From positions 1 through 64,000 of the forward strand of contig NZ_JAMBLT010000006.1 of assembly GCF_023336895.1 (NCBI RefSeq): a DNA stretch of 64,000 nt. The letters run 5' to 3'. Source of the DNA: Parasutterella secunda (GTDB taxonomy: Bacteria > Pseudomonadota > Gammaproteobacteria > Burkholderiales > Burkholderiaceae_F). Both the position numbers and the translations under genes were made by a program. Below the pieces are notes generated by a model. That model saw nothing but the letters and a program-made list of their open reading frames with translations. It made no database searches and was not told the DNA's origin. This document shows, piece after piece, positions 16,009 through 42,562 of the stretch (within the stretch, counting starts at the first letter, position 1; each line of letters opens with the position of its first letter).

Positions 16009-16445
16009 TTTGTTTTAAAAGTGTTCATTGATGCAATGCGAACGACATTGACTCATTTTTAATCACTCAGAAGAACCATTAAAGCGTGAGTACGCACCTG
16101 AAAGTTTTCATCATTTACAGGCATAAAGATGCGCAATCAAGGGACTGCAAGAATTTTTAATTGGCTTAAAAAGATATCTGGGCGGATTGTATCAAGAGCG
16201 TATTGAGCCAAAATCCCATTTAGGCACAAAGAAGACTCCTTAATTCCATGAGCACTATATTCAAAAATTGAATGGACATTGAAGCTATAAGTTTCTTGAA
16301 ATTATCCGAATACCTTTCACAAAAATAAACGTCTTCAAAGTTTTGCCGGCAAAACTCTTTTTTCAGTGTATCGTATATTCAATAAAGGCATTGACAACCC
16401 CACCCAATCTGACAGATAACTATCTGGAAGACGAATTACAAAAAG
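16009..16445. other. Intergenic region with palindrome copy
   Basis: I see no gene here. The region holds one exact copy of the dispersed palindrome at 16339-16356. It also contains ATTATCCGAATACCTTTC (16301-16318), which recurs with a one-base indel at 16702-16720. Confidence 0.5.
16339..16356. repeat. Dispersed 18-bp palindrome, exact copy 1
   Basis: AGTTTTGCCGGCAAAACT, a perfect palindrome. It is the leftmost copy found, in the gap between the primase gene and the helicase operon. No start codon lies within 90 bases. Confidence 0.9.
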
Positions 16446-16628
16446 ATGATGATCAAAGATACTGAATTATCGCAAGATACAAAAATTCAACGAAAAAAAG
16501 AACTAGGTAAGGCTCTCGCCACCGCGACAAAATTTGGCTTACGCCTCGAATGGATCTTTCGGACGAGATGTTGGAGCGAATTTTCAAAGATGAGTAGCCA
16601 ATCACTGACAAAATACTTCTCAAACTAA
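16446..16628 (+). CDS. Possible small hypothetical gene, maybe frameshifted
   Basis: The 60-residue frame starts MMIKDTELSQDTK and ends with the unusual stretch EWIFRTRCWSEF. In a neighbouring frame the last third reads MDLSDEMLERIFKDE and then stops, which looks more protein-like. One indel near 16535 would join the good N-terminal half to this tail. It may be a decayed small regulator or antitoxin-sized gene; this is a weak call. Confidence 0.25.
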   Translation: MMIKDTELSQDTKIQRKKELGKALATATKFGLRLEWIFRTRCWSEFSKMSSQSLTKYFSN

Positions 16629-16665
16629 TGGAGTTATACGGAATAAAAAAGAACCAGTGAATATC

Positions 16666-16705
16666 GGACGTTTATATGAGATTAATGGACGGTTATTTGA
16701 GATTA
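16666..16705 (+). repeat. Two-copy tandem repeat, 21-bp period
   Basis: GGACGTTTATATGAGATTA (16666-16684) is followed at a 21-base period by GGACGGTTATTTGAGATTA (16687-16705). It lies between the small frame and the helicase operon's terminator. The function is unknown. Confidence 0.6.
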
Positions 16706-16735
16706 TCCGAAATGCCTTTCTTATTTTTAATTACG

Positions 16736-16775
16736 AAAAGTCGCTCAGGGTTTTAAAACTTTTTCCCTGACCGAC
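16736..16775 (-). terminator. Terminator of the helicase operon
   Basis: On the minus strand GTCGGTCAGGG pairs with CCCTGAGCGAC, with one G-G mismatch, followed by TTTT. It begins 28 bases after the stop of the 1738-residue helicase gene and would close the four-gene operon. Confidence 0.65.
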
Positions 16776-16802
16776 CTTTCGCACACAAAATTATCAAAAA
16801 GA

Positions 16803-19800
16803 TTAAATTTGCTCTTCTATTTCTTTGGCAGCAAAGGGTAACGCAAATCTCAAATATCCTTCATTCAAAAATATAAAATCCCCTTCATTAACTGGGCGTT
16901 TCTGCATCGCCGGCATTACCTCAAGTATCTTTTCATTTTTAAGATCATCAATCATTATTATGTGGTTGTCTCTTCTTATTAAATGGTAGTTTTTCCCTTC
17001 AAGATAGTTGATCAACGGTTTTAGTAATTCAAATTGTTCATCGACACTCTTTCTTTCAGGCAATGAAGAGTTTTTTGCCCAATTTAATAAATCTAAGGCT
17101 GATTTTCTGTCTAACAAATGATGAACTCTTTGGTTTTGATAATGTTTTAAACAATCAAAACAGGCGCTCTCGCAGGAACATTTGCTTAATAATTCTGTTG
17201 TCTCTTTTAATAAAATTTGAGCTTGATCTGTCAGTGAGGTTGCATAACCGGCACCACTCGACAGACTGTCATAAATAAAGATATCAATAAAGTCCCCACT
17301 TGAATTATGTCTAAAACGATAACCGGCGTTGATTTCTGAAAATTCAATATCCAATATTTTGCAAGCCGCCATCCTTAAAGCTTCGGCCAATGTACAAGCC
17401 GCCCTATCTTTCCACGGATTATTTTCGAGGGATAAATTCATGCACTCGTGATCGAGGATAAATTCCATCACCATCATATCTGTTGTGAAATTAAATCCAA
17501 GATTTACATGAACCGGAGTATGTTTGCATACCGCACTACTTCCTCGATAGGGACGTAAAACATCAGCGCTAAACTCTTCACTATCTGCGGGAGCAGCTGC
17601 TCCACATTTGGTACATACTAGGAACCCTTTGTTTTTAGGACCAGGATTTAGTAGAAGAATCTGTTGTTTCTTTCTTGAAGCGACTTTTATTCCTTTGTAT
17701 CCGATGACTTCGTCCATGACTTCATTATCGTCTGGCAAAGTACTATACATGGGGATGCCTGTATAAGAATATTCCTCTACTGCCCTTACTTTGGGAATCG
17801 ATCTTCCATTTTTAGGTGCAAATCCCCAAGGTTTCAAAGTATCCGGCATTCTCTCAATTGACTTATTCCCACAGAAGGGACAACTTTCTTCCGCATTGTG
17901 GTCTGTGCCAAACCACCCACAAGAGGTACAGCGATACGTTGGTTTTAAGTAGTTCTCATCATTAAAGTAACTTTGAGCCTCATTCACTTTCTTATGATTG
18001 GTGTGGTTATAAATACCTCCAATTAAATAGGTTTGTTTATCCACAACAATTGAACGACCTGGTGCGTATTCGTTAATAGCTATATCCAAGCTTCTTTCGA
18101 TTTTATGAGTTAATTTCCCATTCCAATCTTCAATATTCATGGAAACAACGTTTTTGGGAAATGAGTAGGTTGCCACCAATCCGTCTTGGTATAAAACATC
18201 AAGCAAAGAAACGTCATTCTCAAACAAATCCGGATGTTTTTTAAAACGTGCCCGGATATTATTTAGGCCTTCCAACATAAAATCACAGGCCTGGGGAATA
18301 AATTTCCGGTTCTTTAGATTGCTGTGATCCTCTTTTCTCCATTTATTAATAAATTGCTTAAAATCATCAAAGTCTTCAATTAAGAAGTCTTTAGCTCCAT
18401 ACTGATCAATATCTATCGATTGCGGCAGAAAATAATCATGGAAAGCTATCAAAGATAAATGGCGCATAATCAACGTAGGGTTGTTGACATCAATCCAAGG
18501 CTTTCTGGCGTCTCCTCTAACCATGGGAGAGGGATCTCTGAAATAAATAGAGTCATGGGCACTATCACTACAGTAAGTGAGAATTGTTGAAAGACTTGTT
18601 CCCCGTCTACCCGCGCGACCGGCTCGCTGCTGATAATTTTCACGTTTAGGCGGCATGTTTCTCAATCCGACCGCTACTAACGAACCAATATCTATGCCGA
18701 CCTCCATCGTCGTTGTACAACTTAATACATCTACCGGCTTCTCATGCTCTGTAATAATGTCTTGAAAACGTAATTCGTACTGTTCAGTTTTTGACCACAA
18801 ATCCAAATTTTGTTCTTTATGGGACAGCTGAGCAGTATGCTCCTCAACATCTATCTGATTTATATGATATTTATCGTCTAAGCAATCAAGTAACGGTTTG
18901 CGCCAGTAATCAATCTTATGAAGAGAATCCTCATCCATACGATGAATATTTGCTGATCCGCAGTGCGGACACGCCTTATTCCACGTGAAAGCTGATATTT
19001 CCGAACAATCATCGCAGCGATACCACGGATGGTCTTTTGCAAAACATGCTCGAATTTTTCTAAGAGAAATAAAATAATTCTGATTCTTAGTATCAATATC
19101 TAACAGTAAATCTTTGAAAATTTCCACAAGTTTTTTCAAATCTTTTTCTGGAATTTTGGTTCGATTTGTGTCTAAACCTTCAAATATCTTATTTGATTGG
19201 ATACCCCAAGATTGATAACCAATTCGAACCTCATCTCTAGCTTGAGTACTTATGTCTTGTCCTAATGCCAAAGAATCTTGACAGACATTAATAAACCACA
19301 GATTAAACAGTTCAATAATTTTTTCTTTTTCAAGCCCCGAAATATGCTGATATTCCAACTCATCCATAATCATATCGAGTACTTCAGGAGTTGGCTCTAA
19401 CCAACAAATTGCAGAATCGTAAAGCGTATTAAAGGTGCCGCAAAATAGTTTTAGGAACTCAACTCCGTATGCAAATGGAAATTGACTTTTCGGCTCAGGA
19501 CGGTATTGTTTCTCTCTTCCATTACGGCTATACCTGTCATAACTGTTATATTCTTTTTTAGCATGGACTGCGAAATTTTCTCGGCTCTCCCCTTCAAAAA
19601 GATCAAGCTGACTGAGATAAGCCTCTAATGCTGTATAGCCATACAAATCCTCAAGAGTATAGTCGTCACCAGCCATTTTCATTTTATTGATTGCCCGGAG
19701 AGTTAATTGTCGAAATGCTGTATTGTCTGCATATTCAGACATATCTCGTGCCAGTTTTGCAGCCTGCTGACGACTATCTGAAAAGACTAGGACTTTTTTA

Positions 19801-22019: not shown

Positions 22020-23004
22020 AAGTTATGCAATTTTTAGCTAACAACGGTATAAGAGAATCAATAATTTCTTTTTTTATCAAATAATTTGATTGGTTATCCT
22101 GATAAAGGTATTTCAAAGGCCACGAATAAATGTTTAAAAATGAACGAAGTTCACGAGGTAAGGGAAGTTCGTTCATTTTATAAAGATAATAGTCTCCACT
22201 TCGATATATCTTGCACTTTAGCCGACCATGGTAATTTTGGATGAATGCAGATGCTAGGTCTATCCATATTTGCTCAGTTTTGAAAAAGTCCGGCAGATAG
22301 GAAACAAATAAGTAACTCATCGCACCAATATTTTTAGTTTTACTTAAAAAATATCGGTAAGGCTCAACAGTTGTTCGAGCTAGTGAGACTTGGTCAACAT
22401 CGCTACTCCACCTAAAACCATTTAAAGAAGCTTTGATATCCAGTATTGAAACGTAGGCCCCATTCCCTTGATATTGCTCCCAATGTGCTGTATGAAGATA
22501 ATGTTCAAGCAATGGCCTTAAGGTATCTAACTTTAAATCCCAAAAATTGGATAAATCATCTGATTGTTTTGCTGAGTTAACTTTATATGGCCCTAAGCCC
22601 GACATATAAACCAATTCACTTGCTCTCATACCCCTAAGTAAAAGAACTTGATTGAGCGAACATTCTTTATAGACCGAATTCGAGAGTGTTTTACCTTGTT
22701 GATAATAAAAGCCTCCATTTCTGTACTGATCATAGATATAGTCAGCCATTTTATTCAGATCGATATCGTCTGATCCTGACGGATTAATAGCACGGAATAC
22801 ATTAATAAATGCTTTTTTGAAGTGATGTACAGAAACAAATCCCGCTATTCCTTCTGAATTAGTATCACTTAACGAAGCCAATGCCCAGCGACCGGCGAGA
22901 CTGTAAGCAACCCGGGCAAGATGTTCCTGCTCAGATTCCTGCGGTCTTTTAGGAATATTCAAACCGTTTTTTATTTCAATTAACAGTTCAGAAACTTCTC
23001 TCAT
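22003..23004 (-). CDS. Unrecognised third gene of the DruE-like operon
   Basis: The 333-residue protein is soluble and mostly helical, with no signal peptide and no motif I can name. It overlaps the gene before it by 4 bases (ATGA) and the helicase gene by 17 bases, so it is translationally coupled to both. In Druantia type I the gene just before druE is druD, an uncharacterised protein of roughly this size. I infer a positional equivalent from order and size only; no sequence comparison was possible. Confidence 0.65.
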   Translation of the reverse strand: MREVSELLIEIKNGLNIPKRPQESEQEHLARVAYSLAGRWALASLSDTNSEGIAGFVSVHHFKKAFINVFRAINPSGSDDIDLNKMADYIYDQYRNGGFYYQQGKTLSNSVYKECSLNQVLLLRGMRASELVYMSGLGPYKVNSAKQSDDLSNFWDLKLDTLRPLLEHYLHTAHWEQYQGNGAYVSILDIKASLNGFRWSSDVDQVSLARTTVEPYRYFLSKTKNIGAMSYLFVSYLPDFFKTEQIWIDLASAFIQNYHGRLKCKIYRSGDYYLYKMNELPLPRELRSFLNIYSWPLKYLYQDNQSNYLIKKEIIDSLIPLLAKNCITFGTYS

Positions 23005-25061: not shown

Positions 25062-25077
25062 TTTAAGTCTCCAAATA

Positions 25078-27004: not shown

Positions 27005-27583
27005 ATGTGCGATAGTTACAACATTCCTCAAAGAGAAGAACCTCCCTATGTCCCATTAATGCCTGCTTCGCTAGAAATTAAGACTCAAAAGATCAATGTT
27101 GGCTGGTGGAAATGGAACATTTCTATTAATGAGGAACTATACGAGGATCACGAGATTGTTACATGGAAAGAAACGGGGCGATCAAGACGTCAATATCAAA
27201 TTCATTTGCAGTGCAGTGAGACCTTTGATCCTGTGCCAGAACTCCACTACTTCAACCGAGCACTGTTAATAAATGGTGACGATGATGATGTCAAAATCTG
27301 GAAAGTTAATGAAGAAGGACGAATAACCATCTTCAAGGTTTGGACACTTTCCTGTAAACTTTTACAACTTCAAATTGAAGCCAGAAGTGCTCAAGTGGAT
27401 TATCACTACGATCTTGTTGTCGACCGGGATGCTTTTATTTCGCATTTAATGAAAACATATTGTGACTTTGGCAAACAAGGCGGCTGGGGGTGGTACGGTG
27501 ATCGAGTATATGAAGAAGATTGGAATATGGAGCCTGAAAGAATAATTCTTGATTGTGGAAAATTTAAACAATATTTTCCATAA
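27005..27583 (+). CDS. Hypothetical 192-residue protein
   Basis: GGAGG lies 9 bases upstream of the ATG. The protein is acidic, rich in Trp and Tyr (VGWWKWN near 32-38; GGWGWYGDRVYEEDW near 155-170) and soluble. It is the only plus-strand gene between the helicase operon and rep. A short ORF and a hairpin precede it and a good terminator follows, so it is a monocistronic unit. Its place between the defence operon and the mobilisation block does not reveal a role, and I do not recognise a family. Confidence 0.7.
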   Translation: MCDSYNIPQREEPPYVPLMPASLEIKTQKINVGWWKWNISINEELYEDHEIVTWKETGRSRRQYQIHLQCSETFDPVPELHYFNRALLINGDDDDVKIWKVNEEGRITIFKVWTLSCKLLQLQIEARSAQVDYHYDLVVDRDAFISHLMKTYCDFGKQGGWGWYGDRVYEEDWNMEPERIILDCGKFKQYFP

Positions 27584-27595
27584 CCAGCACAATCT

Positions 27596-27611
27596 GTTTT
27601 GCCGGCAAAAT
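27596..27611. repeat. Dispersed palindrome, imperfect copy
   Basis: GTTTTGCCGGCAAAAT differs from the 16-bp core of the exact copies at its last base. It starts 13 bases after the stop of the 192-residue gene. Confidence 0.75.
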
Positions 27612-27755
27612 TTATTGTTAGCCCAAGCGAAAGATTTTTTACCGCTCCCCTCCCCTTTTTCGTAACTGTTCAGCCCAACAAAGCAATCATTGCATTAGTT
27701 CTGTATTCGAATTAAAAAATAATTTACGTTATCAAAGTCAGCGTAACTGGTTTTA

Positions 27756-27788: not shown

Positions 27789-27853
27789 ATCAGACTGAAA
27801 TTTGATCAAATAAACATATCGCGGCACTACGCTGGTAAAACCTAATCGGCAAC

Positions 27854-27871
27854 AGTTTTGCCGGCAAAACT
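27854..27871. repeat. Dispersed 18-bp palindrome, exact copy 2
   Basis: AGTTTTGCCGGCAAAACT, immediately after the stop codon of the DUF4400 gene on the minus strand. Confidence 0.9.
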
Positions 27872-27876: not shown

Positions 27877-28506
27877 TCAAATTTTCTTGGCCAAATGACT
27901 CAAACTGATACCCATTGCCAACATCACAAAACTCACTATGAAAGGTATCAGTATTGGTGGAATTGCAAATGGCATTAAAAATAAAACAAAGAAACCAATA
28001 GTCAATAAACCGCACGCTCTCCATGAATAACGAAGTACAGTTGGCGATGTATATGAAAAATTCGTTCGCTTTATTTGTCTCTCAAGCAAGCCATAAGCTG
28101 CTGCTGCCAATAAGGCGGGTATAGAAATTGGCAACCACATTGCAAACAGTGCCATTCGTCTAAAAAACCAATAAATCAAGTCCAAAAGAGCTTCGACTCG
28201 TTCATAAACTGGGTTATCCAATATTCGTCCCACTTCTAACATGCCCAGAGAATTTGTACGCTCATAAGCGGTAGGCAACAGATAATTTACGAGATTTTCC
28301 TCAACATTATTTTTGACAACAAATTCTTCGTACCAGTGATTAGCTTTTTGAATGACGTAGTATGAACTTTCAGTACCAAATGCATTCTTCACCAATCGAG
28401 ATTCTGTTTTAGCCGCGGACTGGATGTATGAAGGAGAGAGTAGCAAGACGGCAATAAAAAACTCAACCACCATCACTGAAATGCCGATCACGATTCCCTT
28501 ATTCAT
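27877..28506 (-). CDS. DUF4400-type integral membrane protein
   Basis: The 209-residue protein has an N-terminal membrane segment (residues about 5-27), a periplasmic-type loop, and three further hydrophobic stretches near 115-140, 165-185 and 185-203. This layout, and its place just downstream of traD in a MOBH element, fits the DUF4400 family found beside the coupling protein in SXT/R391-type ICEs and related plasmids. Its role in transfer is undefined; it may support the coupling protein in the inner membrane. Palindrome copies lie on both sides of the gene. Confidence 0.7.
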   Translation of the reverse strand: MNKGIVIGISVMVVEFFIAVLLLSPSYIQSAAKTESRLVKNAFGTESSYYVIQKANHWYEEFVVKNNVEENLVNYLLPTAYERTNSLGMLEVGRILDNPVYERVEALLDLIYWFFRRMALFAMWLPISIPALLAAAAYGLLERQIKRTNFSYTSPTVLRYSWRACGLLTIGFFVLFLMPFAIPPILIPFIVSFVMLAMGISLSHLAKKI

Positions 28507-28632: not shown

Positions 28633-28650
28633 AGTTTTGCCGGCAAAACT
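28633..28650. repeat. Dispersed 18-bp palindrome, exact copy 3
   Basis: AGTTTTGCCGGCAAAACT, in the gap between the DUF4400 gene and the 186-residue gene, about 130 bases upstream of the DUF4400 start. Confidence 0.9.
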
Positions 28651-29257: not shown

Positions 29258-29275
29258 AGTTTTGCCGGCAAAACT
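29258..29275. repeat. Dispersed 18-bp palindrome, exact copy 4
   Basis: AGTTTTGCCGGCAAAACT, 14 bases upstream of the start codon of the 186-residue gene and downstream of traD. It overlaps the region where a ribosome site or leader would lie. Confidence 0.9.
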
Positions 29276-29291: not shown

Positions 29292-31190
29292 TTAAGATTT
29301 AATTCTATCTTTTTCTTCTTCGCTATAAAGAATTGGGACGCGCCCCTTGACAACATAGCCTCCGGAGATCACGCCAAAATATTCTAAATTGGGAAGAAGA
29401 CCTAAAACTTCAGGCGGCACCAGCTCCGATTCTTCTTCCACTAAGCGTTCTCCTGTCGAGCCTCCCATCAAAATCGGTTCATGGGCTAAGGTACTTTGTC
29501 CCTGGTCTTGAGCAACATAACGAATCTTTGTTTTAGGCATACGAGCGCAGAAAAACTTCTGCGTTTCCGGATCCTGACTTCGTAACGTAAAAATATTGTT
29601 TAAGTTGCCGAAAACTTGAGTGGCCTTGCTGCTTGAGCCAGTTCTCACGGAAAAGTCAGCGAACGTTTGCGTCGCAACAAACAAGCGGAAATTGGCGCCA
29701 CGGCCTTTATTGAGAAGCTGAATAAATCCATCGTTTGCAATTTCATTAGCTTCGTCTACAAACACATCAATACGCCGGCCACTTTTACCTTGGAAGTTAT
29801 AGATGGAACCGGCCACGGCCGTGAGGTCGGCTATAAACATTGCTCCCAAGGCGCCTCCCACTTCTGCATTGGAAAGCATATCGAGCCCCACATAAACCAC
29901 GCAGCCTTTTCCGATCATTTCACCAAAATCTCGATACTCATGCAAAGCCGCCTCCTCTTCGTTAGGAGGGGAGAGGGCATCACCCAACTGACCGGATGTC
30001 AATTTATTAAGAATCGGCAAAAGGGAGGTAATCATCTTGGAGTAGTGCTCTGCATCGTGCTCAAGCAAATCGATAATACCGTCCAAAACTGTCGAATGAT
30101 GTTTAAGACGCATGGCTGTTTTGTAGTGACTCACCAAACGTTCGGTGTACTTTTTCGAATTAGGTCTAAAGTCTTTGACCACCTCATCAATGACCTTCTG
30201 TGCATTTTCCTTATAAACCGTTTTCATCCACATTATGATGGAGCGAGCTGTGAGTGTTTCAACTCCTCCTTCAATGTAGGCTCTAAGACGTTTGAGAGTC
30301 GGTTTATCTCCGCAGAGCACCATGGCATGCACGATGGAATTCATGGCTGACCAGGCAAAGTTGGTGAAGGGGGCGGAGCTTCCGGTTGTCGGCATGATGG
30401 AAGAAACACGAGACGGCACTTCCGTTGCATTAGACCAGTTCGCAAGAGGATTGATACGGCTGGACTCATCAAGATGCGCCAAGTGAAACTTAACAAAAGC
30501 ATCAGCTCTACCTAAAGCTTCACAAGACCGTTTGGCATTATTCATCAAATCTATATCACCCTTAGGATCCAAAATAATGATGGAATCACCTTGGCAAATT
30601 GCTTGAGTAATTAAAAGATCGAAAAATCGGGTTTTCCCGGAACCAGTAGTTCCAAAAATCATGGTGTGACCATCCATATGACTGAGCTTTTGCAAAATCT
30701 TGCTTTCCTTAGGCTCCAACCCATGAATCCATGTTTGCCCAACGTGCTCAGAAATAACCTCAGCATCTTTAAAGGCTAACGTTTGAAGAATCCCCTTAGG
30801 CGTTCTTCCAAACTCTGCCCAATTACGTTTTAGAGCCTCACAGAGCTCTTGTGTATGGCGAGGCATCCATTTAAATCCATAGCCTAACCAACACACATCA
30901 GGGTGCTTTTTAGATAAAACAAACTGACGAACTTTTTCAATGGAGACGAAATTAAGGTCGTGACCCGCTAAAAGACTTTGCCGTTGCCAAACCTTATAAG
31001 CCGCAGGTATTTTTATCATTGCAAATAGAACAAAAATACTCGCAATAATCATGACCGGTGTTTGAACCCCAGGATTGAAAAATCCATAGAGAAGATAAAA
31101 GAGAGCGCCTGAGAGCATCACCAACACCTGATAGAGTTCATAGTTAGGACGCCAAGTGAGGGAATATTTCAAATTATCAAATTTAGCCAT
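29292..31190 (-). CDS. traD: TraD-type conjugative coupling protein
   Basis: This 632-residue VirD4/TraD-family ATPase would link the relaxosome to the type IV channel in the inner membrane. Two N-terminal membrane segments lie in the first 80 residues. Walker A is FGTTGSGKTR near residue 180, Walker B is VFVDEANEI near 475, and the TraD-type motif LFVATQTFADF follows. The ATG at 31190 lies 8 bases after the relaxase stop and gives the family-like start MAKFDNLKYSLTWRPNYE; a TTG at 31220 is in frame but would overlap the relaxase gene. The relaxase-traD order matches MOBH elements such as SXT/R391. Confidence 0.92.
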   Translation of the reverse strand: MAKFDNLKYSLTWRPNYELYQVLVMLSGALFYLLYGFFNPGVQTPVMIIASIFVLFAMIKIPAAYKVWQRQSLLAGHDLNFVSIEKVRQFVLSKKHPDVCWLGYGFKWMPRHTQELCEALKRNWAEFGRTPKGILQTLAFKDAEVISEHVGQTWIHGLEPKESKILQKLSHMDGHTMIFGTTGSGKTRFFDLLITQAICQGDSIIILDPKGDIDLMNNAKRSCEALGRADAFVKFHLAHLDESSRINPLANWSNATEVPSRVSSIMPTTGSSAPFTNFAWSAMNSIVHAMVLCGDKPTLKRLRAYIEGGVETLTARSIIMWMKTVYKENAQKVIDEVVKDFRPNSKKYTERLVSHYKTAMRLKHHSTVLDGIIDLLEHDAEHYSKMITSLLPILNKLTSGQLGDALSPPNEEEAALHEYRDFGEMIGKGCVVYVGLDMLSNAEVGGALGAMFIADLTAVAGSIYNFQGKSGRRIDVFVDEANEIANDGFIQLLNKGRGANFRLFVATQTFADFSVRTGSSSKATQVFGNLNNIFTLRSQDPETQKFFCARMPKTKIRYVAQDQGQSTLAHEPILMGGSTGERLVEEESELVPPEVLGLLPNLEYFGVISGGYVVKGRVPILYSEEEKDRIKS

Positions 31191-31198
31191 TATCTTTT

Positions 31199-33691
31199 TC
31201 AGTCTTTTATACGTAAACAAAATTGATGAGCTGCACGATCCGCGCGGAGTAGGGGATCAGGAGATCGCTCAAGATAGGTTACAAAACCATCCAAACTCAA
31301 ATCTTTTGCAGCAAGCACCTGAGCAATCACGTCATCGTTTGTTTTTCTTTCACCATCTTCCAATACGACATTGGAAAGCATGGGTCCCTTCCCGGCTTTT
31401 AGTTGCTTAACTAGCCCTAAAGCAAGGACCTCAAAAATCTGTTCTCCTTTGGATGGTTTTAAAGATTCAGAGGACTGTGCCTTTTTGCGCTCAACACGTT
31501 GTCCGGCAACCGTGTCTTTAAAGTCTTTTTGGTTTTCAGATGACCTTTTATTAGTCTGCGTGCTCTTATTCGTAGCCTCCTCCTGAGAAGCTTTCTTTTC
31601 AATGTCGTGACTTCTTGTTTTAATCGGCTGATTCTCCTTAGACCTTTTCTTATGATTGGAAGATTTCAGAGGTTTTTCTTCCTTACCTGAAATTTGCTTT
31701 TCGGTTGACGAGTTTTGCCGGCAAAACTTTTCATCAACTTCTGGCACTTTTATACACATCCCCTTAACTGACTTTTTCTTCGTCTCAGACTTCGTATTTT
31801 TTTGCAAAGAATGAGTACATGATTTCTTCTTTTTATTGTCTTTCGGCTCTTTCTGCTCCGTAAAAAGTTTTTCTTGTGGCTTTGATTCGCTTGTTTTATC
31901 GGCGCACTCTGTGCTCTTAGGAAGTTCACTTTTTGACAAAGCATCCTCAACGTTTTTAACGTGTTTAGCCACCAATTCAGGCTTTTCAATACCTTCTTTT
32001 TCTTTCTGTGTAACTATGGCGACAGGCTTAATGACCTGTGAGACAATAAAATTCACCTTATTTTCTTCAGCCGCATTCGAATTGCAGCCCTCCGGTAGCG
32101 CGCATTTCGTGAGTTCGATCCATCGAAGAGCTTCATCAGCATCAACCGGGACACCTTTAACGACAGCCAACGTGCAGCTTGGTCGCTTAACATGCGCAAA
32201 GACATTGGAGTCATCTGCTAAACGTAAACACAAAAGGAAATTAAATTCAATAGATCGAAGTTTGCCCGGACTGTCATTGATTCCATTTTCTAATTCTTCT
32301 GACTCTTCTGCCTGAAACTCTGAAATCTCGTCTACGTTTCCAATATAGGAACTCATCTCCTGATTGAGTTCAGCATTAAGTTCTGCTTTTTCTTCGTCCG
32401 TCAAGAAAGTCTCTTTTTGCTCCCCATTTTCAAAGCCAGACTCATTGAAACTTTCGCCTTGCGGTTGCAATATTCTTGCATCTAAAGGATCTACTCCTGA
32501 AATTGAAGCAGCCGGCACAACTTTCCAAATAAAACGGTTGACTTCCTCTGTTTTATTGAATTCACACAGGCCACCCTCACAGAGCTTTTCAGCCAAAATA
32601 TCGGCATTTCTGGGAACAGATCCAATGCCTCGCTTATCCAGTTCTTTCACAATATCCAAGTAGGCTATTTTCCAAACGAGGAATACACCGAGAGACGTAA
32701 CAAGAAGCGGGGAGAGGAGCTTACCTTCTGAACTAAACTGGTTTGCCTCCCAATGATTTTCTTCAATAATTGTTGTGATAATGCCTTCGATGATTGAGCA
32801 AATAGGCGTGTCAACGCCTGGATTGACTTTCGATTTATTCTGATACTCGATATCCAATTGCGTGCTGCGGGCATCAGCCTTTTTCACAAGATTAGGAATG
32901 AGCATTTGAGAGTCTGTCTCTCCAGAGAGAGCCTTAACGAGTTCTGACATCAGCATTAGCGAATTAGCTTCTTCGAGATACTTTCTGGTTGGCAAGCCTA
33001 CGAGATTCCAGAAGAATAGGGGAGTGGCCTTCATATGAAGCTCATACATATCAGCTTTGGTGTTCCAAGCAATGTTGTAACTGGCAATCCCTTCACGTTC
33101 AGCCCATTGAACAATAGATTCTGATAATGGGTGCCAGACTGTCTGGCCTTCTTTCCCGGTGACTGTCACACTGGTGAGTACCTTACCCACATCATGCAAG
33201 AGTCCTGCCAGACAACAAGCCAAATACCATCGACCTGTGTTTTTAAAGTTTTCCTCAGCTGATTGTCCATTACCGAAGATATGAGTTTTTGCGATATTAA
33301 TGCTGTAAAGCCCTACTTCGAGCGAATGCCTGAATAGACCGCCCCGTCCTTTATGGTGGTAAAAACTTGAGGCTGGAATTAAGTGAACGAGTTCTCCCAA
33401 GTTGTAGATCACTGGAAACAGCAACTCGTCACACTCGTCACTACTAAGTGGAATCGATCTTTTAATCGACTGAATCAGGCGCCCTTGACTTTTGATAACA
33501 TCATCAACGCTGACCACTGGTACAGGAGCTTCCCTTGTTGGGTAGGTATTGTCATCTAATTTAATTTCTTCCGTGTGCGCAACGTCAGCAAAACTAAAAA
33601 CTTGTCGAGCTACGTCGTTTTGTGCTGTCGGTTGTTCAACCGGAACCGACTTAAACGAAAGATGACGCAATAACTGTGCAAAGAATCCCAT
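31199..33691 (-). CDS. traI: MOBH-family relaxase (TraI_2 type)
   Basis: This is the nickase that starts conjugative transfer. The N-terminal TraI_2 domain carries the MOBH signature HHKGRGGLFRHSLEV (about 112-126) and the HD pair in LLHDVGKVL (about 166-167), with further His in WHPLSE. A second conserved region near 330-390 (LLVTSLGVFLVWKIAYLD) fits the TraI_2 C-terminal domain. The tail (about 560-760) is Lys/Glu/Ser-rich and probably disordered. The ATG at 33691 is preferred; an upstream TTG adds four residues. One exact palindrome copy lies inside the tail-coding region (FCRQNSS). The gene leads an operon with traD. Confidence 0.92.
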   Translation of the reverse strand: MGFFAQLLRHLSFKSVPVEQPTAQNDVARQVFSFADVAHTEEIKLDDNTYPTREAPVPVVSVDDVIKSQGRLIQSIKRSIPLSSDECDELLFPVIYNLGELVHLIPASSFYHHKGRGGLFRHSLEVGLYSINIAKTHIFGNGQSAEENFKNTGRWYLACCLAGLLHDVGKVLTSVTVTGKEGQTVWHPLSESIVQWAEREGIASYNIAWNTKADMYELHMKATPLFFWNLVGLPTRKYLEEANSLMLMSELVKALSGETDSQMLIPNLVKKADARSTQLDIEYQNKSKVNPGVDTPICSIIEGIITTIIEENHWEANQFSSEGKLLSPLLVTSLGVFLVWKIAYLDIVKELDKRGIGSVPRNADILAEKLCEGGLCEFNKTEEVNRFIWKVVPAASISGVDPLDARILQPQGESFNESGFENGEQKETFLTDEEKAELNAELNQEMSSYIGNVDEISEFQAEESEELENGINDSPGKLRSIEFNFLLCLRLADDSNVFAHVKRPSCTLAVVKGVPVDADEALRWIELTKCALPEGCNSNAAEENKVNFIVSQVIKPVAIVTQKEKEGIEKPELVAKHVKNVEDALSKSELPKSTECADKTSESKPQEKLFTEQKEPKDNKKKKSCTHSLQKNTKSETKKKSVKGMCIKVPEVDEKFCRQNSSTEKQISGKEEKPLKSSNHKKRSKENQPIKTRSHDIEKKASQEEATNKSTQTNKRSSENQKDFKDTVAGQRVERKKAQSSESLKPSKGEQIFEVLALGLVKQLKAGKGPMLSNVVLEDGERKTNDDVIAQVLAAKDLSLDGFVTYLERSPDPLLRADRAAHQFCLRIKD
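31711..31728. repeat. Dispersed 18-bp palindrome, exact copy 5, inside the relaxase gene
   Basis: AGTTTTGCCGGCAAAACT lies within codons for the low-complexity tail of the relaxase. It is the only exact copy inside a coding region. Confidence 0.9.
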
Positions 33692-33823
33692 TTTCAACTT
33701 CAAAAAATGAAAACGGGCAATATTGTCTCAATTGAAATACTTGATATTTGGGTTAATAAGTCAAGAATTTCTGACGTAAAACTAATTTTTTGAATTGGTA
33801 GCTTTAGACTACATTTTTAGAAA

Positions 33824-33841
33824 AGTTTTGCCGGCAAAACT
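33824..33841. repeat. Dispersed 18-bp palindrome, exact copy 6
   Basis: AGTTTTGCCGGCAAAACT, about 130 bases upstream of the relaxase start and directly next to the terminator of the parAB operon. It is the copy nearest parB. Confidence 0.9.
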
Positions 33842-33846
33842 CAAAT

Positions 33847-33882: not shown

Positions 33883-33903
33883 AAATATTAAAAATTTAGG
33901 ACA

Positions 33904-34161
33904 CTATTCAAACCACTCAGGATTGAATGCACCGTAATCTTCCACAACGTAATAACCTGTTCGATTTTTACGCACGAAGTATATTTTCACGCCAAAGACT
34001 TCACGTAGTACTCGTAAGTAGCGATTTATTGTTGATTTTGAAATTCCTAATTGCTCCTGAAATACAGGCATGGAGGCTTTTTCGCCCTCTTTTACAATGA
34101 TCCTGACAAGAGCCACGAGTTGTGTGTAGTCCTTAGGAGGCCAAGGAATTTTGACTGACAT
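33904..34161 (-). CDS. Small helix-turn-helix protein downstream of parB
   Basis: The 85-residue protein has a winged-helix-like HTH: MPVFQEQLGISKSTINRYLRVLREVFG (about 31-57), followed by strands IYFVRKN and TGYYVVED that could form the wing. Its start is 10 bases beyond the parB stop, so it is the third gene of the parA-parB unit. Small regulators in this position often control the partition or replication operon. That role is inferred from position. Confidence 0.7.
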   Translation of the reverse strand: MSVKIPWPPKDYTQLVALVRIIVKEGEKASMPVFQEQLGISKSTINRYLRVLREVFGVKIYFVRKNRTGYYVVEDYGAFNPEWFE

Positions 34162-34171
34162 GACAAACTCC

Positions 34172-35128
34172 TCAGATAACAGTAGTGCCCAACATCACAA
34201 CATCTTCTACAGAAACCACGTGCACTTTTCCATTCACCACTACACAAACGTTGTTTTTATCCTTGCAAATTGCATGGGGATGAATGTATCCGCCAACAGG
34301 GGATTGTCCGTTTAAAACGACCGACACGCTGACAACTACCTGGCCTTTTTCGACATAGGTAGCGCCCACAGGAAGTTTTTCTCCCTTTTGGGCCTTCTCC
34401 TTGGACTCTTTTGTTGTTGGCTCGTGACTAGACTTTTTCTCTCCAGGTTTTTTACCTGTTTCTTTATTTTGTTTTGTTTCAATAGCCTGCGCTATTTCAC
34501 GGACATCAGCACGCGTGACTTGTTCCAATTTTTCGAGTTTGGTTAAAAATTCTTGACCGTATTTGCGTTCTGACTCACCCATAGCAATTAAAACATCCGC
34601 ACTATCGACGCCCTTAGCCTTTGCTATGTTCTTCAAATTGTCAGAAACTAATGAAAGCGACATCATTCGACTAACGTATGTCTTGCTTTTTCCTAATCGT
34701 TTAGCAATATCAACTGATGCAACACCGTTATCTTTTAAGAGATGCATCGCTGCAGAAACTTCAAACGGATCCATATCATCACGTTGAAGATTTTCGGTTA
34801 ACTGAGCAAGCACTCTTTGCTTTTCATCTTCTGGAGCCTTACGAATGATTGCGGGAATATGCTTTAACCCCAGTTGTTTGCAGGCGCGATAGCGACGTTC
34901 GCCTTGAACAATAATGAATTTGCCTTCCTTGTTGGCGGGTTCAACAATAATCGGCTGCTGCAAGCCAATTTCTTTAATACTGTTGGCAAGCTCTTCAATT
35001 TTTTTAAATTGCTTGCGGACTTGTTCACGGGTAACGACAGAATCGATTTCTAAGTTACGCAATTCTTCTTTGCTAACCGACTCGATTCGCTTTCTCATTT
35101 CCTTAAGGTTTTTAAAGTCAATCGGCAT
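34172..35128 (-). CDS. parB: ParB-family partition protein
   Basis: The 318-residue protein would bind centromere sites and work with ParA to segregate the plasmid. It has the ParB N-terminal domain with LQQPIIVEP and the CTPase motif GERRYRA (about 76-82), then ENLQRDDMDPFE. The HTH region reads SVDIAKRLGKSKTYVSRMMSLS (about 135-156). A charged linker precedes a beta-rich C-terminus (about 255-318) resembling the SH3-like dimerisation domain of KorB. This last point, and the many dispersed palindromes, suggest it could silence genes as well as segregate. Its ATG lies 2 bases after the parA stop. Confidence 0.92.
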   Translation of the reverse strand: MPIDFKNLKEMRKRIESVSKEELRNLEIDSVVTREQVRKQFKKIEELANSIKEIGLQQPIIVEPANKEGKFIIVQGERRYRACKQLGLKHIPAIIRKAPEDEKQRVLAQLTENLQRDDMDPFEVSAAMHLLKDNGVASVDIAKRLGKSKTYVSRMMSLSLVSDNLKNIAKAKGVDSADVLIAMGESERKYGQEFLTKLEKLEQVTRADVREIAQAIETKQNKETGKKPGEKKSSHEPTTKESKEKAQKGEKLPVGATYVEKGQVVVSVSVVLNGQSPVGGYIHPHAICKDKNNVCVVVNGKVHVVSVEDVVMLGTTVI

Positions 35129-35130
35129 TT

Positions 35131-35907
35131 TTAGTTCCCGCTTTCAATTTTTTTAATTCGTTTAATCATTTCTTTGACCACAGCCTGCATTTCTTCTGCA
35201 GCTCGTTTGCCATTTCTGACGCGCCAAATAGGTTCGCCTTCCATCGTCGCACTATCCAACGGAGGACGATGACGCAAGTAGTTGTCAAAGACCATATCAT
35301 CCATGGCTTCCTTAACTCCAGCCAGGGCCTTGTTGTGTGCCGCCGATTGGTCGTATTCATTAATCAGAATGCCCAAAACTTCCAGTTCATGGTTAATTTG
35401 TTCTTTGACATCAAAAATTGTCATGAACAGACCTTCCAAACCATCAACAGCAAATCCGGATAATTTCACTGGACAGAGAACGTACTTAGTTGCGTTCAAT
35501 GCTGAAAGAAGTTTACGACCCAAGGAAGGTGGACAGTCTATTAAAACGTAGTCATATTGATCCCAAATACGTTCCAAATTTGAACGGGGGACGAGGGCTG
35601 CACTAATTGGTAAGGATTCGGCATCGTAACCTTCACGGTCATTTTTGGGGGATCCAATTAAATCAATCCCGTATTCCGTTTCCGTCGCTTCAACTTTGTC
35701 TAAGTTTTCATCAAACAGCTGGACGGTTCTAGTGCCAGTAAGCTCTTGGCCTTTTAAAAGAACGGTAGTTGTATTGCCTTGGGCATCCATATCAACTACA
35801 AGAACTTTCTTTTTTTCTTTGATCGCAAGCTGAAAAGCAACTTGTGTGCAAATCGTAGATTTACCAACCCCACCTTTTTGGTTGGCAAACGCAATGCGTA
35901 TAGGCAT
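35131..35907 (-). CDS. parA: ParA partition ATPase
   Basis: This 258-residue ParA/Soj-type Walker ATPase begins MPIRIAFANQ. The deviant Walker A KGGVGKST is at 11-18, VVDMDAQGNTTT follows at about 42-53, and the Walker B-like VLIDCPPSLG is near 120. The ATG at 35907 has GGAG 7 bases upstream; an in-frame start at 35937 adds ten residues and overlaps the likely operator. There is no N-terminal HTH, so this is a short ParA. Repression of the operon may depend on ParB or on the small HTH protein. Confidence 0.93.
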   Translation of the reverse strand: MPIRIAFANQKGGVGKSTICTQVAFQLAIKEKKKVLVVDMDAQGNTTTVLLKGQELTGTRTVQLFDENLDKVEATETEYGIDLIGSPKNDREGYDAESLPISAALVPRSNLERIWDQYDYVLIDCPPSLGRKLLSALNATKYVLCPVKLSGFAVDGLEGLFMTIFDVKEQINHELEVLGILINEYDQSAAHNKALAGVKEAMDDMVFDNYLRHRPPLDSATMEGEPIWRVRNGKRAAEEMQAVVKEMIKRIKKIESGN

Positions 35908-35915
35908 AACTGACT

Positions 35916-35928
35916 CCGATAATATCGG
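35916..35928. promoter_or_regulatory. Candidate parAB operator palindrome
   Basis: CCGATAATATCGG is a 6-bp inverted repeat around one base. It is placed 9 bases upstream of the parA ATG, next to the ribosome site. It differs from the dispersed palindrome, so a second regulator may bind here. Confidence 0.45.
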
Positions 35929-36051
35929 TTCATACATTTATAAACAGCAGTCACTATATCATATTATGAGATTGAATATCGATTATTTAAAACAGATTTT
36001 TATAAAATTATTTGCTATTCTGTACAATCTTCGAAGTAGTCTTTTCAATGC

Positions 36052-36081: not shown

Positions 36082-36157
36082 ACGAAGTGAGACTTGTTTG
36101 TTTCTTTTATTGTGCGTGAAAAACCTTTATTAACGTTAGGCCCTTGGAGCAGCTGTT

Positions 36158-37273
36158 ATGCCTAAGAAAAAGCAAAATGAAGATTTTCATCTTGAAGAAC
36201 TGACCCAAGAAGAAGAGGCAGAAATCTTAAAGAAGCCCAAGCAGAGACGGACACGTTCATCGAAGAAAAATGCATTGGCAACTGCTGTTCAAGAGGCTGA
36301 ACAGCTACTTTTATTTGAGAAAATTCCTGGAAAGATTTCATCTGTGAAGGATGATATCGCATCAATGGAATTTTCTTTTTATTCTGTATCGACTAAGGTC
36401 GATAACCTGCCCTATGAATTTAATAACGGGCACCAAATCATTCGTATTGTTCCCAGTGTTATTGGCCGCCCCAATCAACAATTTGATAAGGATTTGATGC
36501 TTTACATCAATTCTTTATTAGCCCGGGCTCAATTTGAACATGAAGATGACCATTTGAAGTATCGTCGCATTGAAATCAATTTGGCCGACTTCTGCCGCTT
36601 TACACATCGCGAGTTTGACGGAACGATGAGCGAAGCCTTTATGAATTCGTTGTTGCGTCTTCGTGGTACGACTATTCAAACAACGGTGAGAAGTACCGCT
36701 GAAGATGAATTAATTAATGGTTTTTCTCTAATTGAGTCTTATAAAGTCTTAAAGCGTTCATCTGGCAAGCGTGAAGGGGTTTTAAGTGCAGAGGTGACTA
36801 TTTCAAAGTGGCAGGCCAGGCAAGTTCATGATAAGTATGTCCTGACTATTGATGATGATTATTTTTCCATCAAGCGCCCAACTGAAAGAAGGCTTTACGA
36901 AATTGCACGGAAGTTCTGTGGAAATCAGAAGATTCTTTTCAGAATCGCCTTGTCAAATTTGTTACTGAGAATGGGATTGTCAGCTTCGAAAACATTAAGA
37001 GCTTTCCGTTATCAAATTAAGCAAATGGTGTTGCGTAATGAGATACCAAAATACAATCTCGCCTATGACGCCCAAAATGATCATTTGATTATCTTCCCTA
37101 GAGATTTAAAGGTTCGAGAATTTTTGAGATCGGCGGCTGAGAATGTTCAATCTAATTCATTGATGACCAATAAGTCATTTGAGGAATTGGAAAATTGGTT
37201 TAAAGGTTTAGTTATTCATCCGGATGCTGATCCTTATGCGGTTCATAAATATCTAGCGGGCACTAAAAAATAA
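36158..37273 (+). CDS. repA: Replication initiator, RPA family
   Basis: The 371-residue protein matches the plasmid replication initiator RPA family (PF10134) pattern. That pattern includes DDIASMEFSFYSVSTK (about 67-82), SVIGRPNQQFDKDLMLYI (about 101-118), the LLRLRGTTI motif (about 168-176), and DDYFSIKRPTERRLYEIARK (about 226-245). The basic, low-complexity N-terminus (about 25-50) is probably disordered. GGAG lies upstream of the ATG. The protein should bind the iterons that begin about 200 bases after its stop codon and recruit the host DnaA and helicase. It is divergent from parA, a common arrangement. Confidence 0.9.
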   Translation: MPKKKQNEDFHLEELTQEEEAEILKKPKQRRTRSSKKNALATAVQEAEQLLLFEKIPGKISSVKDDIASMEFSFYSVSTKVDNLPYEFNNGHQIIRIVPSVIGRPNQQFDKDLMLYINSLLARAQFEHEDDHLKYRRIEINLADFCRFTHREFDGTMSEAFMNSLLRLRGTTIQTTVRSTAEDELINGFSLIESYKVLKRSSGKREGVLSAEVTISKWQARQVHDKYVLTIDDDYFSIKRPTERRLYEIARKFCGNQKILFRIALSNLLLRMGLSASKTLRAFRYQIKQMVLRNEIPKYNLAYDAQNDHLIIFPRDLKVREFLRSAAENVQSNSLMTNKSFEELENWFKGLVIHPDADPYAVHKYLAGTKK

Positions 37274-37471
37274 TGCCTGTGTTGCAATACTTTCAAAGAC
37301 GTTGCTTTGGGTTTTATTTGGGAATCGGTTTAAATAAGGCGCTTCGTTATTAAATATATTTATTTTTATTATTTATATTACGGAGCGGTTTCTATATTTT
37401 TTGATTTTTCTTAACTTTTTGTTTTTAATGTGAAATTTGTTCTTTTTTGGTCTTATTTTATTAGATTGAGT

Positions 37472-39091: not shown

Positions 39092-39355
39092 TAGTGGTTG
39101 AGTAAAGAGAGTTTTCATTGGAACAGAAAGCCTGATTTCGAGAACAAGTCAAAGTTGTTGCCTTTATACATCAGTTGGTTAGATAGGGGGTTGACAGAAA
39201 CTCGGGGGGGGGCACATATAGGCCATGTTGTCAAGTGATCTTCCTAACGGAGAGTTATCCACATTTTTCGAAGCGCTCATCCTCAATCATGGGCCGTAGC
39301 GAGAAAAATCGTGGGTAACTCGGTTCTGTCTTGCGTCCTTTTCTGTCAATTAATC

Positions 39356-39387
39356 ACTGTACTCCCGTGACTATTATGGGAGACAGT
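39356..39387. other. Imperfect hairpin in the oriV-distal region
   Basis: ACTGTACTCCC (39356-39366) and GGGAGACAGT (39378-39387) form a 10-bp stem with one bulged A and an 11-base loop. No T tract follows, so it is not a typical terminator. It could be a single-strand origin or an oriT arm, but there is no direct evidence for either. Confidence 0.4.
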
Positions 39388-39675
39388 TACCGAATTAAGG
39401 CCAATTTGAAATCAAAAATTTTGGATAAAAACTGACCCAACCAGGGGGGAAGAAAATGTCGTTTAGGGGTTAACTTGGGTGACGCTTGATAAAAGATGTT
39501 TAAAGTTCAATACTATCGGTTAACTTCGGCAAACAAAAGGTTTGATATCTACTCTAGGATATTATACGTCGGATATAATTAAAACCATTTAAGTTGTTCT
39601 ATCTCTCAAATTCCGATCCAAGTTGTTAAAGGAGTATTGAGTAATATGAACAGGCTTTACTTTATGGAGAATAAA

Positions 39676-42456
39676 ATGTTTCCTACCTTGAAACCAAGTG
39701 CATTAGCTTTGGCCGTATCGATGGTGTTGCCAGTTGCTCAAGCTGTAGAATTTGATGTTACGACGGGTGTTGATGGAGTAGAGTACGGTTATGCAGGGAT
39801 CTTTAATCCGGCTTCTGATTTTGTCGAAGATGTAGTCATCATCGCTAAAGACGTACCCAATGACATCACATGGGCTTATGGCTACCGCAATCAAACGGGT
39901 AAAGCGAATCAAATTAATGGTAATTTGTTTGTCAGTATCGAAAATCTTGAAAAAGACCCGGGCATTTTTGGCGTTCGTATCCAAAATGGTTCCTCGTTAA
40001 CAGTCGGAGGAGACACATTCGTTACTTCGAAAACCAGCTCTACACAATCTGTTGGTATTTTAGCTTTCACAACCGGAACTATCCTAGATTTAAGTCACGG
40101 AAACACGGTGCTCAATGTTGCCTCCCATACGGGGCGTGTTATGGGTATCGACATTGAGCAAAGTTCCAAAGCGATTTTGGGCAAGGCTGAAATCAATCTC
40201 AACGCCAGTGGTAAAGCAACTTCTGGCACTCGCTGGATTCAAGGACTTTATGGAGCTGGAGGTAACATTGAAGTCAAAGATGATATTGTTTTTAATGTTA
40301 CGACCTACAATAATAATCAGCAACTAGTTGATAGTGGGACTTCTGTTATCCGAGTAATTAACCTTGAAGGCAGCGCATATAGCACAAATGCTCAGTTTAA
40401 TAAAAACCTCAATATCGTAGTGAATGCTAATGCCCAAGAGGCTCTTGGCATTTATGTAAGTGGAGATAAAGAATCAACCTCCGATCTTCATGCTGGCGTC
40501 AATATTGATGGGCAATTAGGAATTGATATTCAAGGCGCTTTTGATTCAGCTGTGGGAATTTATGCTCAAGGGGAGTCTGGAGTTTCAACGAATCAGGCAA
40601 ATATTTCGATTCATTCGACAAAAAGTGAAGGTTCTGTCTACGGCATTTATTCAACAGCCAATCCCGATAGTTACCCAGGTCCTGGGTATGTCAATGTTGA
40701 GAACGGATTGACGGTTGACGTACATGGGAAAGGCCAAACAGTCGGTATTTTGTCAATAGGCTCCTCTGATGACAATCGAGCATCATTGGTTAATGTTGGA
40801 GGCGCAACTGATATTAATGTGATATCTGATGAAGGTTCTGCTATCGGGGTTGCTGTTCAAGAGGGGGCTACTTCAACATTACATAACGTCATCGCTAATG
40901 TACAAAGTCAAGCTGCAGACGGAAAAGCAATCGGTTTGGATTTAAGCAGCGCTGATGTAACCTTGCTAGGTAACCATACTATTAGTGTGGAAGGCTCTTC
41001 ATCTATTGGTATCAACGCCGCTGACACCGTGTTAGATATCAACGGATCCGCAGTAGTTACCTCCGATACAGCCATGGTTTCAGATGCAAAATCCGTTATC
41101 AGTGTAGCGGGTGACGATGAAGTGGCTCGTTTAGTTCTCAATGGCAATGTTTCTAACGAAGGAATCCTAAAGCTTGATAACGCTACGATGTCTGTTAATG
41201 ACACCACTGAAGAAGTCACGCTTGGCACAATCAATACGATAGGTAGTAAAGAAAGTACTGTTGAGCTTTCTGCGGGAACCTATGATATTAAATCCTTCAA
41301 TGGTGAAAATAAGACCTTACTTTTAAATGACTTAGCTAATACTCAAAGCGTCACTATTGCTAAAAAGACAGGCGACTTGCGTATGGTAGCAAGTGCTCAC
41401 TCCAACGACCAATATGCAAATGCTCAAGCAGCTGCCGAGGCTCTGAAAGATACTATCGTTATAACCGAAGATGAAGCTCAAGCGCAAAATAGCCTTGATG
41501 TACAAGCTGGTGATGTTAACGATGCTTTGACTGCTGAACTCAATCGAGATGGGTCATTATCCAATGTACGCATTGTTAAGAATGACAAATTAGATGCCTT
41601 TGGTTCAGTTGCTGCTCTATCTGCTATGTCTCTACGCCACGAGATGAACAGTCTTTCTAAGCGCATGGGAGACCTGCGTGACGCTCCGGAAGGTGTTGGC
41701 GTGTGGATGCGCGGCTATGGTTCTGAAATGGAATACGGTGCCCAAGACCTCAAGATGAGAAGCAAGTCCGTTCAGTTTGGTACGGATCAATCTGTCGGGG
41801 ATTGGAAGTTGGGAGTTGCTTTCACCTATACAGACGGAGACACTTCTTATGATTTAGGCTCTGCTGACACTAAGGGTTACGGCGTTGCTCTATACGGAAC
41901 GTGGTTTGTGCCTTGCGGCGCTTACATTGATTTGATGGCTAAGTACAACCGTTTGGAAAATGACTTCAAACTCAATGGTATGGACGGAGACTACAACAGT
42001 AACGCCTATGGCGTGAGCGTCGAAACCGGCTATCGTTTCGAATTCATGGATGGTGGCTTGTACCTTGAACCACAAGTTGGTTTGAACTACGGTCATATTG
42101 AAGGTGAAACGATCAAGACAAGCAATAATGTCCGTATTGATCAAGACAGTTACGACAGTCTGATCGGTCGCGCGGGGCTGCGAGCCGGCTTTAAGTTCCC
42201 GAAAGATAAGGGAACAATCTATGCTCGTTTGTCCGGTTTGTATGACTTCGATGGCGAAGTCAATGGAACGGCCACTAAAGGTGTGGCGCACAATACCATT
42301 GAAGAAGACTTAGGCGGCGCTTGGGTTGAAATGGGTGTTGGTGCCAACTTTAACTGGACGCCGAATACGTACACCTACATTGATTTTGAGCGCACCAATG
42401 GTGGAGATGTCAAAGAAAACTATCGTTGGAATGTCGGTATTCGTCATACTTTCTAA
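39676..42456 (+). CDS. Autotransporter adhesin-like protein 3
   Basis: The product is a 926-residue type V secreted protein. The ATG at 39676 is chosen because GGAG lies 6 bases upstream and because it opens a clean signal peptide (MFPTLKPSALALAVSMVLPVAQA). Earlier in-frame starts at 39637 and 39646 add a charged extension. The passenger (about 25-650) is Ser/Asn/Val-rich with beta-helix-like repeats. The linker VAALSAMSLRHEMNSLSKRMGDLRD leads to the barrel, from VGVWMRGYGSEMEY (about 671) to the terminal IRHTF. It shares the linker and barrel plan with the other two autotransporters but is the most divergent of the three. It sits between the origin and the end of the tra operon. Confidence 0.88.
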   Translation: MFPTLKPSALALAVSMVLPVAQAVEFDVTTGVDGVEYGYAGIFNPASDFVEDVVIIAKDVPNDITWAYGYRNQTGKANQINGNLFVSIENLEKDPGIFGVRIQNGSSLTVGGDTFVTSKTSSTQSVGILAFTTGTILDLSHGNTVLNVASHTGRVMGIDIEQSSKAILGKAEINLNASGKATSGTRWIQGLYGAGGNIEVKDDIVFNVTTYNNNQQLVDSGTSVIRVINLEGSAYSTNAQFNKNLNIVVNANAQEALGIYVSGDKESTSDLHAGVNIDGQLGIDIQGAFDSAVGIYAQGESGVSTNQANISIHSTKSEGSVYGIYSTANPDSYPGPGYVNVENGLTVDVHGKGQTVGILSIGSSDDNRASLVNVGGATDINVISDEGSAIGVAVQEGATSTLHNVIANVQSQAADGKAIGLDLSSADVTLLGNHTISVEGSSSIGINAADTVLDINGSAVVTSDTAMVSDAKSVISVAGDDEVARLVLNGNVSNEGILKLDNATMSVNDTTEEVTLGTINTIGSKESTVELSAGTYDIKSFNGENKTLLLNDLANTQSVTIAKKTGDLRMVASAHSNDQYANAQAAAEALKDTIVITEDEAQAQNSLDVQAGDVNDALTAELNRDGSLSNVRIVKNDKLDAFGSVAALSAMSLRHEMNSLSKRMGDLRDAPEGVGVWMRGYGSEMEYGAQDLKMRSKSVQFGTDQSVGDWKLGVAFTYTDGDTSYDLGSADTKGYGVALYGTWFVPCGAYIDLMAKYNRLENDFKLNGMDGDYNSNAYGVSVETGYRFEFMDGGLYLEPQVGLNYGHIEGETIKTSNNVRIDQDSYDSLIGRAGLRAGFKFPKDKGTIYARLSGLYDFDGEVNGTATKGVAHNTIEEDLGGAWVEMGVGANFNWTPNTYTYIDFERTNGGDVKENYRWNVGIRHTF

Positions 42457-42477
42457 TCAGTTCGGCTGATAACTCAG

Positions 42478-42522
42478 AAAGGCGTTGGGTTGCTATGAAT
42501 TTCAGGTGACTCAACGCCTTTT
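42478..42522 (+). terminator. Terminator after autotransporter 3
   Basis: AAAGGCGTTGGGT pairs with ACTCAACGCCTTTT around a loop of about 18 bases. It starts 22 bases after the stop and ends in a short T tract. Confidence 0.65.
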
Positions 42523-42544
42523 GAATTAGATTACTGTGATAAAA

Positions 42545-42562
42545 AATTTTGCCAGCAAAACT
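42545..42562. repeat. Dispersed palindrome, imperfect copy
   Basis: AATTTTGCCAGCAAAACT differs from the exact copies at two positions. It lies between the third autotransporter and the convergent MobI-like gene. Confidence 0.65.

Follow-up and report, generated by a model that had tools for sequence, protein, structure and literature searches.

Dispersed palindromes on a Parasutterella conjugative plasmid are probably parS sites of its own IncC/KorB-type ParB

The closest described systems are the partition system of IncC plasmids and the KorB/O_B system of RK2. IncC ParB bound three representatives of 14 plasmid-borne and two SGI1-borne palindromic parS sites in electrophoretic mobility shift assays; four of the plasmid sites lie inside open reading frames (ORFs) and one overlaps the parA promoter, the protein 053 is dispensable for stabilisation by ParAB, and parS copies on chromosomes are reported both inside and outside SGI1 elements (PMC10954446). 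KorB represses over more than 1 kb as a cytidine triphosphate (CTP) clamp with KorA (PMC11790492). Here we describe an 18-bp palindrome, AGTTTTGCCGGCAAAACT, dispersed over contig NZ_JAMBLT010000006.1 of a gut Parasutterella (GCF_023336895.1, listed as Parasutterella secunda). The first 64,000 of the contig's 87,695 bp formed the window analysed, and P. secunda An562, from the same genus, is treated here as a related species. We propose that the palindromes are very probably parS sites, that is, ParB/KorB-type operators, of the plasmid's own ParABS system.

The six exact and two near copies listed in a preliminary description of the window were all present, with one near copy starting at 27595 rather than 27596 (Table 1). 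Only 0.04 matches with up to three mismatches are expected in the window by chance, which upholds the view that the repeat is not accidental. The interval of 16.3–42.6 kb to which it had been assigned was too narrow: a ninth copy with one mismatch (AGTTTTGCCGGCTAAACT) lies at 67232 of the same contig. In a symmetrised weight-matrix scan of the contig, these nine sites scored 26–33 bits, and the next score, 12.9, was background as defined by five mononucleotide-shuffled sequences (best scores 9–16 bits). The DNA flanking the palindrome is unlike from copy to copy, so the copies are not pieces of longer repeats. Seven of the nine are no more than 10 kb away from parB (P ~0.0007 under uniform placement, with the distance window chosen post hoc). 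About half of the sites stand directly behind stop codons, one is inside traI, and those at 29258, 28633, 33824 and 67232 are close upstream of genes.

The repeat is confined to the plasmid. No exact copy occurs in the rest of the 1.98-Mb genome, where a search allowing two mismatches returned a single match, with two mismatches, on contig C1. The 14-bp core, TTTTGCCGGCAAAA (half-sites TTTTGC-CG-GCAAAA), was found seven times in this genome, three times in P. secunda An562 and once in each of two congeners, and was absent from the other 64 genomes searched; a general repeat of the genus was rejected on these counts. Across 84,980 species genomes the exact 18-mer was repeated only in P. secunda, and its single matches in 11 unrelated contigs are about the chance level for 257 Gb. 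IMG/VR held no exact 18-mer.

By gene content the contig is a conjugative plasmid, encoding RepA, ParA, ParB, a MOBH TraI, TraD, a DUF4400 protein, MobI and an F-type set (TraC/E/F/G/H/L/N/U plus a TrbI-family protein), and its ends do not overlap. The 10.4-kb par/transfer stretch (26.9–37.3 kb) had no near DNA match in PLSDB. ParB matches ParB/Spo0J (6e-21) and KorB (4e-14) in PDB, and its KorB-like region, earlier placed at the C terminus, is a central DNA-binding domain (residues 133–191, PF08535). The protein contains the motifs GERRYRA and ENLQRDD, which are expected for CTP binding in ParB. The third gene of the par operon encodes a 053-like winged-helix protein, with 33% identity to a Comamonas homologue. 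Two large autotransporters are also encoded on the plasmid (2717–5218 and 39637–42456).

Table 1. Palindrome copies in the window and the partition, replication and transfer genes around them.
Feature	Position	Strand	Description
Exact palindrome	16339..16356		Intergenic; 331 nt upstream of primase-like gene 14662-16008, 447 nt 3' of DruE-like gene
2-mismatch palindrome TGTTTTGCCGGCAAAATT	27595..27612		12 nt past stop of 27005-27583
Exact palindrome	27854..27871		6 nt past stop of DUF4400 gene
Exact palindrome	28633..28650		127 nt upstream of DUF4400 gene; 33 nt past stop of 28683-29243
Exact palindrome, 22-bp symmetry AAAGTTTTGCCGGCAAAACTTT	29258..29275		Between traD stop and start of ORF 28683-29243
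Exact palindrome	31711..31728		Within 3' part of traI coding sequence
Exact palindrome	33824..33841		Between parA-parB-HTH operon and traI; copy nearest parB
2-mismatch palindrome AATTTTGCCAGCAAAACT	42545..42562		21 nt past stop of mobI
DUF4400 protein	27877..28506	-	Flanked by two sites
ORF, 186 aa	28683..29243	-	No Pfam match; flanked by two sites
traD coupling protein	29292..31220	-	PF10412, PF12696
traI, MOBH-type relaxase	31199..33703	-	PF07514 1.7e-55; MobH plasmid matches
053-like winged-helix protein, third par operon gene	33904..34161	-	36% identity to IncC 053, E 7e-13 (local comparison)
parB	34172..35128	-	318 aa; ParB_N PF02195 1.6e-20 and KorB/helix-turn-helix (HTH) PF08535 2.3e-6
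parA	35131..35937	-	268 aa; Walker-type partition ATPase, PF13614 1.1e-35
RepA replication initiator	36158..37273	+	PF10134 7.9e-51; divergent from parA
mobI transfer protein	42583..43278	-	PF19456 5.3e-12

The locus most resembles IncC. Both are MOBH, F-type conjugative plasmids with MobI, share the parA-parB-HTH (parAB053) gene order with homologous ParB and 053 proteins, and carry multiple near-identical palindromes, here with no exact copy in the rest of the genome. Among the 15 ParBs compared, IncC ParB was the top match (40% over 165 amino acids, E = 1e-37). In both, near-perfect palindromes with a 6+2+6-bp core are scattered between genes, some behind stop codons and some in ORFs (in pMR0211 the IncC sites lie partly between genes, some of them 2–11 nt past stops), and further copies occur on chromosomal DNA of another strain, here P. 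secunda An562. The half-site differs, however (TTTTGC here, TTTCAC in IncC), as does the centre (CG versus AT) and the copy number (nine versus typically 10–14), and no copy precedes parA here, whereas IncC has a site at the parA promoter, with autorepression. With the same architecture in different letters (TTTTGCCGGCAAAA versus TTTCACATGTGAAA), the present system is therefore a relative of IncC and not IncC itself.

RK2 offers a second likeness, namely a protein with ParB_N and KorB domains (PMC11790492) and dispersed palindromic operators, TTTNGC..GCNAAA, near transfer and partition genes. The RK2-type core has a 1-bp centre rather than the 2 bp seen here, and KorA is another HTH protein, whereas the neighbouring HTH here matches 053 and gave no meaningful alignment with KorA/TrfB proteins in a local comparison. 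For the chromosomal ParB of the host there is a canonical parS, GTTTCACGTGAAAC, clustered near chromosomal parB on C1, and no match to it with up to one mismatch was found on the plasmid contig. This is likewise a ParB palindrome with TTTNNC half-sites, but it lacks a central spacer and belongs to a separate system; because it has its own parS on C1, the chromosomal ParB is an unlikely binder of the plasmid sites.

Comparable footprints accompany related ParB genes. Of 16 ParB loci, eight carry a recurrent perfect 14-bp palindrome, mostly built as two 6-bp half-sites separated by 2 bp; this was true of only one of 26 control loci (Fisher P = 0.0008) and of none of 320 shuffles. Because resemblance to the present ParB guided the choice of loci, with IncC included deliberately, the count is not drawn from an unbiased sample; it becomes six of 14 when this plasmid and IncC are set aside. 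Each palindrome-bearing locus has one palindrome family only. The closest full-length ParB in the family is encoded on contig G042:C48, together with a related TraI, and there the palindrome AGTTTTATCCGGATAAAACT (TTTATCCGGATAAA) occurs three times: within parB, in the gap from parB to parA, and immediately upstream of the latter gene. The Comamonas locus carries TTTCGCATGCGAAA (six copies), the Azotobacter locus TTTCGCCGGCGAAA, the IncC locus seven copies of its palindrome given above, and loci G039 and G013 both GTGAACATGTTCAC; ParA of the present plasmid matches those of G042, G039 and G013 at 47–51%. Half-sites begin with TTT at five of the eight loci (TTTTGC here, TTTATC in G042, TTTCGC in Comamonas and Azotobacter, TTTCAC in IncC), the others being GTGAAC (G039, G013) and GTCGGA (Turneriella). 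Except on the present plasmid, every one of the eight loci has a copy upstream of parA, about 300 bp away at most. A plasmid of Neisseria gonorrhoeae has a KorB-like TTTAGC-N-GCTAAA (AATTTTAGCNGCTAAAATT), and no ParB relatives were found in viral contigs.

The suggestion in the preliminary description that the parB product binds the palindromes is supported by these comparisons: an IncC-like parAB053 operon, palindromes at related ParB loci, and a separate canonical parS for the chromosomal ParB. Judged by sequence, the sites are most likely dispersed parS of the IncC/KorB type, a kind already known, with a new half-site specificity. A ParB dimer would read the half-sites through its central KorB-type HTH, with the outer AG..CT of the palindrome giving added contacts. 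We infer only that ParB, in the manner of KorB and of further ParBs, would bind CTP, close as a clamp and slide along flanking DNA, that ParA would segregate the ParB-coated plasmid, and that the sites would act in repression. Three observations weigh against this assignment. Eight of the 16 ParB loci lack any exact 14-bp palindrome that recurs. The 220-bp interval from parA to repA is free of copies, unlike in IncC, and the nearest site is downstream of the par operon. Finally, P. secunda An562, which has no plasmid-type ParB, bears three exact copies and a weaker fourth on a chromosome-like contig. The refuting case named earlier, a palindrome frequent in the host chromosome but remote from par genes, does not apply to the present host, which lacks exact chromosomal copies, but does find an echo in An562.

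Local repression of transfer genes by ParB at nearby sites is plausible, because several copies are close upstream of genes; with many sites behind stops and one inside traI, as in IncC, repression need not be the main role. A tentative alternative, compatible with ParB binding, is that the sites serve mainly as KorB-style silencers, with ParB sliding to and repressing conjugation or cargo promoters, possibly locked in place by the 053-like HTH as the counterpart of KorA. The sites are dispersed as in RK2, TTTTGC resembles the KorB half-site TTTAGC, copies stand 15–127 nt upstream of several gene starts, an HTH gene directly follows parB, and the long reach of the KorB clamp with KorA (PMC11790492) makes long-range silencing from such sites possible by analogy. 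Against a main role in silencing, several sites lie just past stops and one within traI, promoter-like signals in 27.4–34.4 kb are no higher than in shuffles, the 053-like protein does not meaningfully match KorA/TrfB, and IncC 053 is not required for stabilisation (PMC10954446). It is very improbable that the 053-like protein, rather than ParB, is the binder: its gene ends only 63 nt from site 33824, but by ORF comparison G042:C48, G039:C92 and G013:C41 carry palindromes with no 053-like gene beside parB, and in IncC the demonstrated binder is ParB (PMC10954446).

We likewise give little credence to the idea that the palindromes delimit mobile gene cassettes, in many cases for anti-phage defence, or serve as their recombination sites. 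Sites 16339 and 27595 do bracket a Druantia-like operon, P. secunda sites 46538 and 53615 bracket an Hhe/PDC-S37 gene, a site precedes a Mokosh-like helicase gene (67261–69714), a tyrosine recombinase is encoded at 69907–70581, and the same uncharacterised gene stands ahead of a site in both species. The copies share no homology past the palindrome, however, the fully symmetrical site gives no direction, and a copy inside traI fits poorly with a cassette border; a ParB footprint explains the repeat better. The cassette reading, taken seriously on account of the bracketed defence genes in two species, was rejected for want of extended homology and for the traI copy. Bidirectional transcription terminators are hardly credible. 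Several copies do lie 6–33 nt past stop codons, but their hairpins are weak and AU-rich (-4.7 to -8.2 kcal/mol), T-tracts adjoin only some copies, one copy is within traI, and loop and both flanks are conserved with full symmetry, the pattern that a DNA-binding site would show. No terminator-like signal in 27.4–34.4 kb was made of the palindrome itself, although one at 27847–27863 overlaps half a copy, and the terminator reading was rejected in the absence of a stable GC-rich hairpin with a T-run at each copy.

The copies in P. secunda An562 lie on a 100-kb contig beside a defence gene, in a genome whose only ParB is chromosomal and whose best ParA match is a 30%-identical chromosomal ParA. 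On the P. secunda contig, a block of 1,455 bp that stops 20 bp short of a site is 99% identical to plasmid positions 5931–7385, which points to recent transfer between species, and the contig also has two side-by-side relatives of gene 27005–27583, one of them likewise ahead of a site. These features argue that DNA was exchanged with a plasmid like the present one, recently in the case of the 99% block. Chromosomal IncC parS inside and outside SGI1 (PMC10954446) provide a precedent, and the P. secunda copies may resemble the parS of SGI1-type islands or be plasmid-derived debris. A scan of the genes around the copies turned up neither an integrase nor a transfer gene, so an SGI1-like element is no more than a possibility; nor did the genes scanned on the contig include any recognisably like those of SGI1. 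It is unlikely that a chromosomal element with the Hhe-type defence gene, of unrelated lineage and without recognisable integrase or transfer genes, has acquired functional parS of a plasmid not encoded there and exploits or destabilises its partition, as SGI1 does to IncC. In an empty-site comparison through the P. secunda asparaginase gene, the flanks were not syntenic in three congeners.

Several defence genes adjoin the sites. The Druantia type I-like operon (16803–26586, minus strand), between sites 16339 and 27595, encodes a 1738-aa DruE1-like protein (E = 0), weak DruD and DruC matches and a further 502-aa protein. In P. secunda An562 (contig segment 40001–60000), an 1811-aa Hhe/PDC-S37-type defence protein is encoded at 6594–12029 of the segment, between two exact palindromes. 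The Mokosh-like gene at 67261–69714 encodes a helicase-nuclease, has a site just upstream and is followed by the small tyrosine recombinase. Gene 27005–27583 encodes a 192-aa protein with no match in Pfam, PADLOC or PLSDB; in both species, one copy of this family has a palindrome 12–15 nt past its stop. In congener G001, a single gene for a 358-aa ATPase_2-like protein (15930–17123 of locus L050) stands between two related palindromes, ACTTTTGCCAGCAAAAGT and ACTTTTGCCGGCTAAAGT, and in P. secunda its 78% relative is likewise followed by a weak site.

The eight-locus comparison points to a simple rule, a pair of 6-bp half-sites with 2 bp between them, by which the parS sites of such plasmids could be recognised in sequence. 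With its exact copies, P. secunda offers a testable instance of plasmid parS located outside the plasmid. The palindrome would add the partition specificity TTTTGC-CG-GCAAAA, from gut Parasutterella, to the IncC/KorB-type ParB family.

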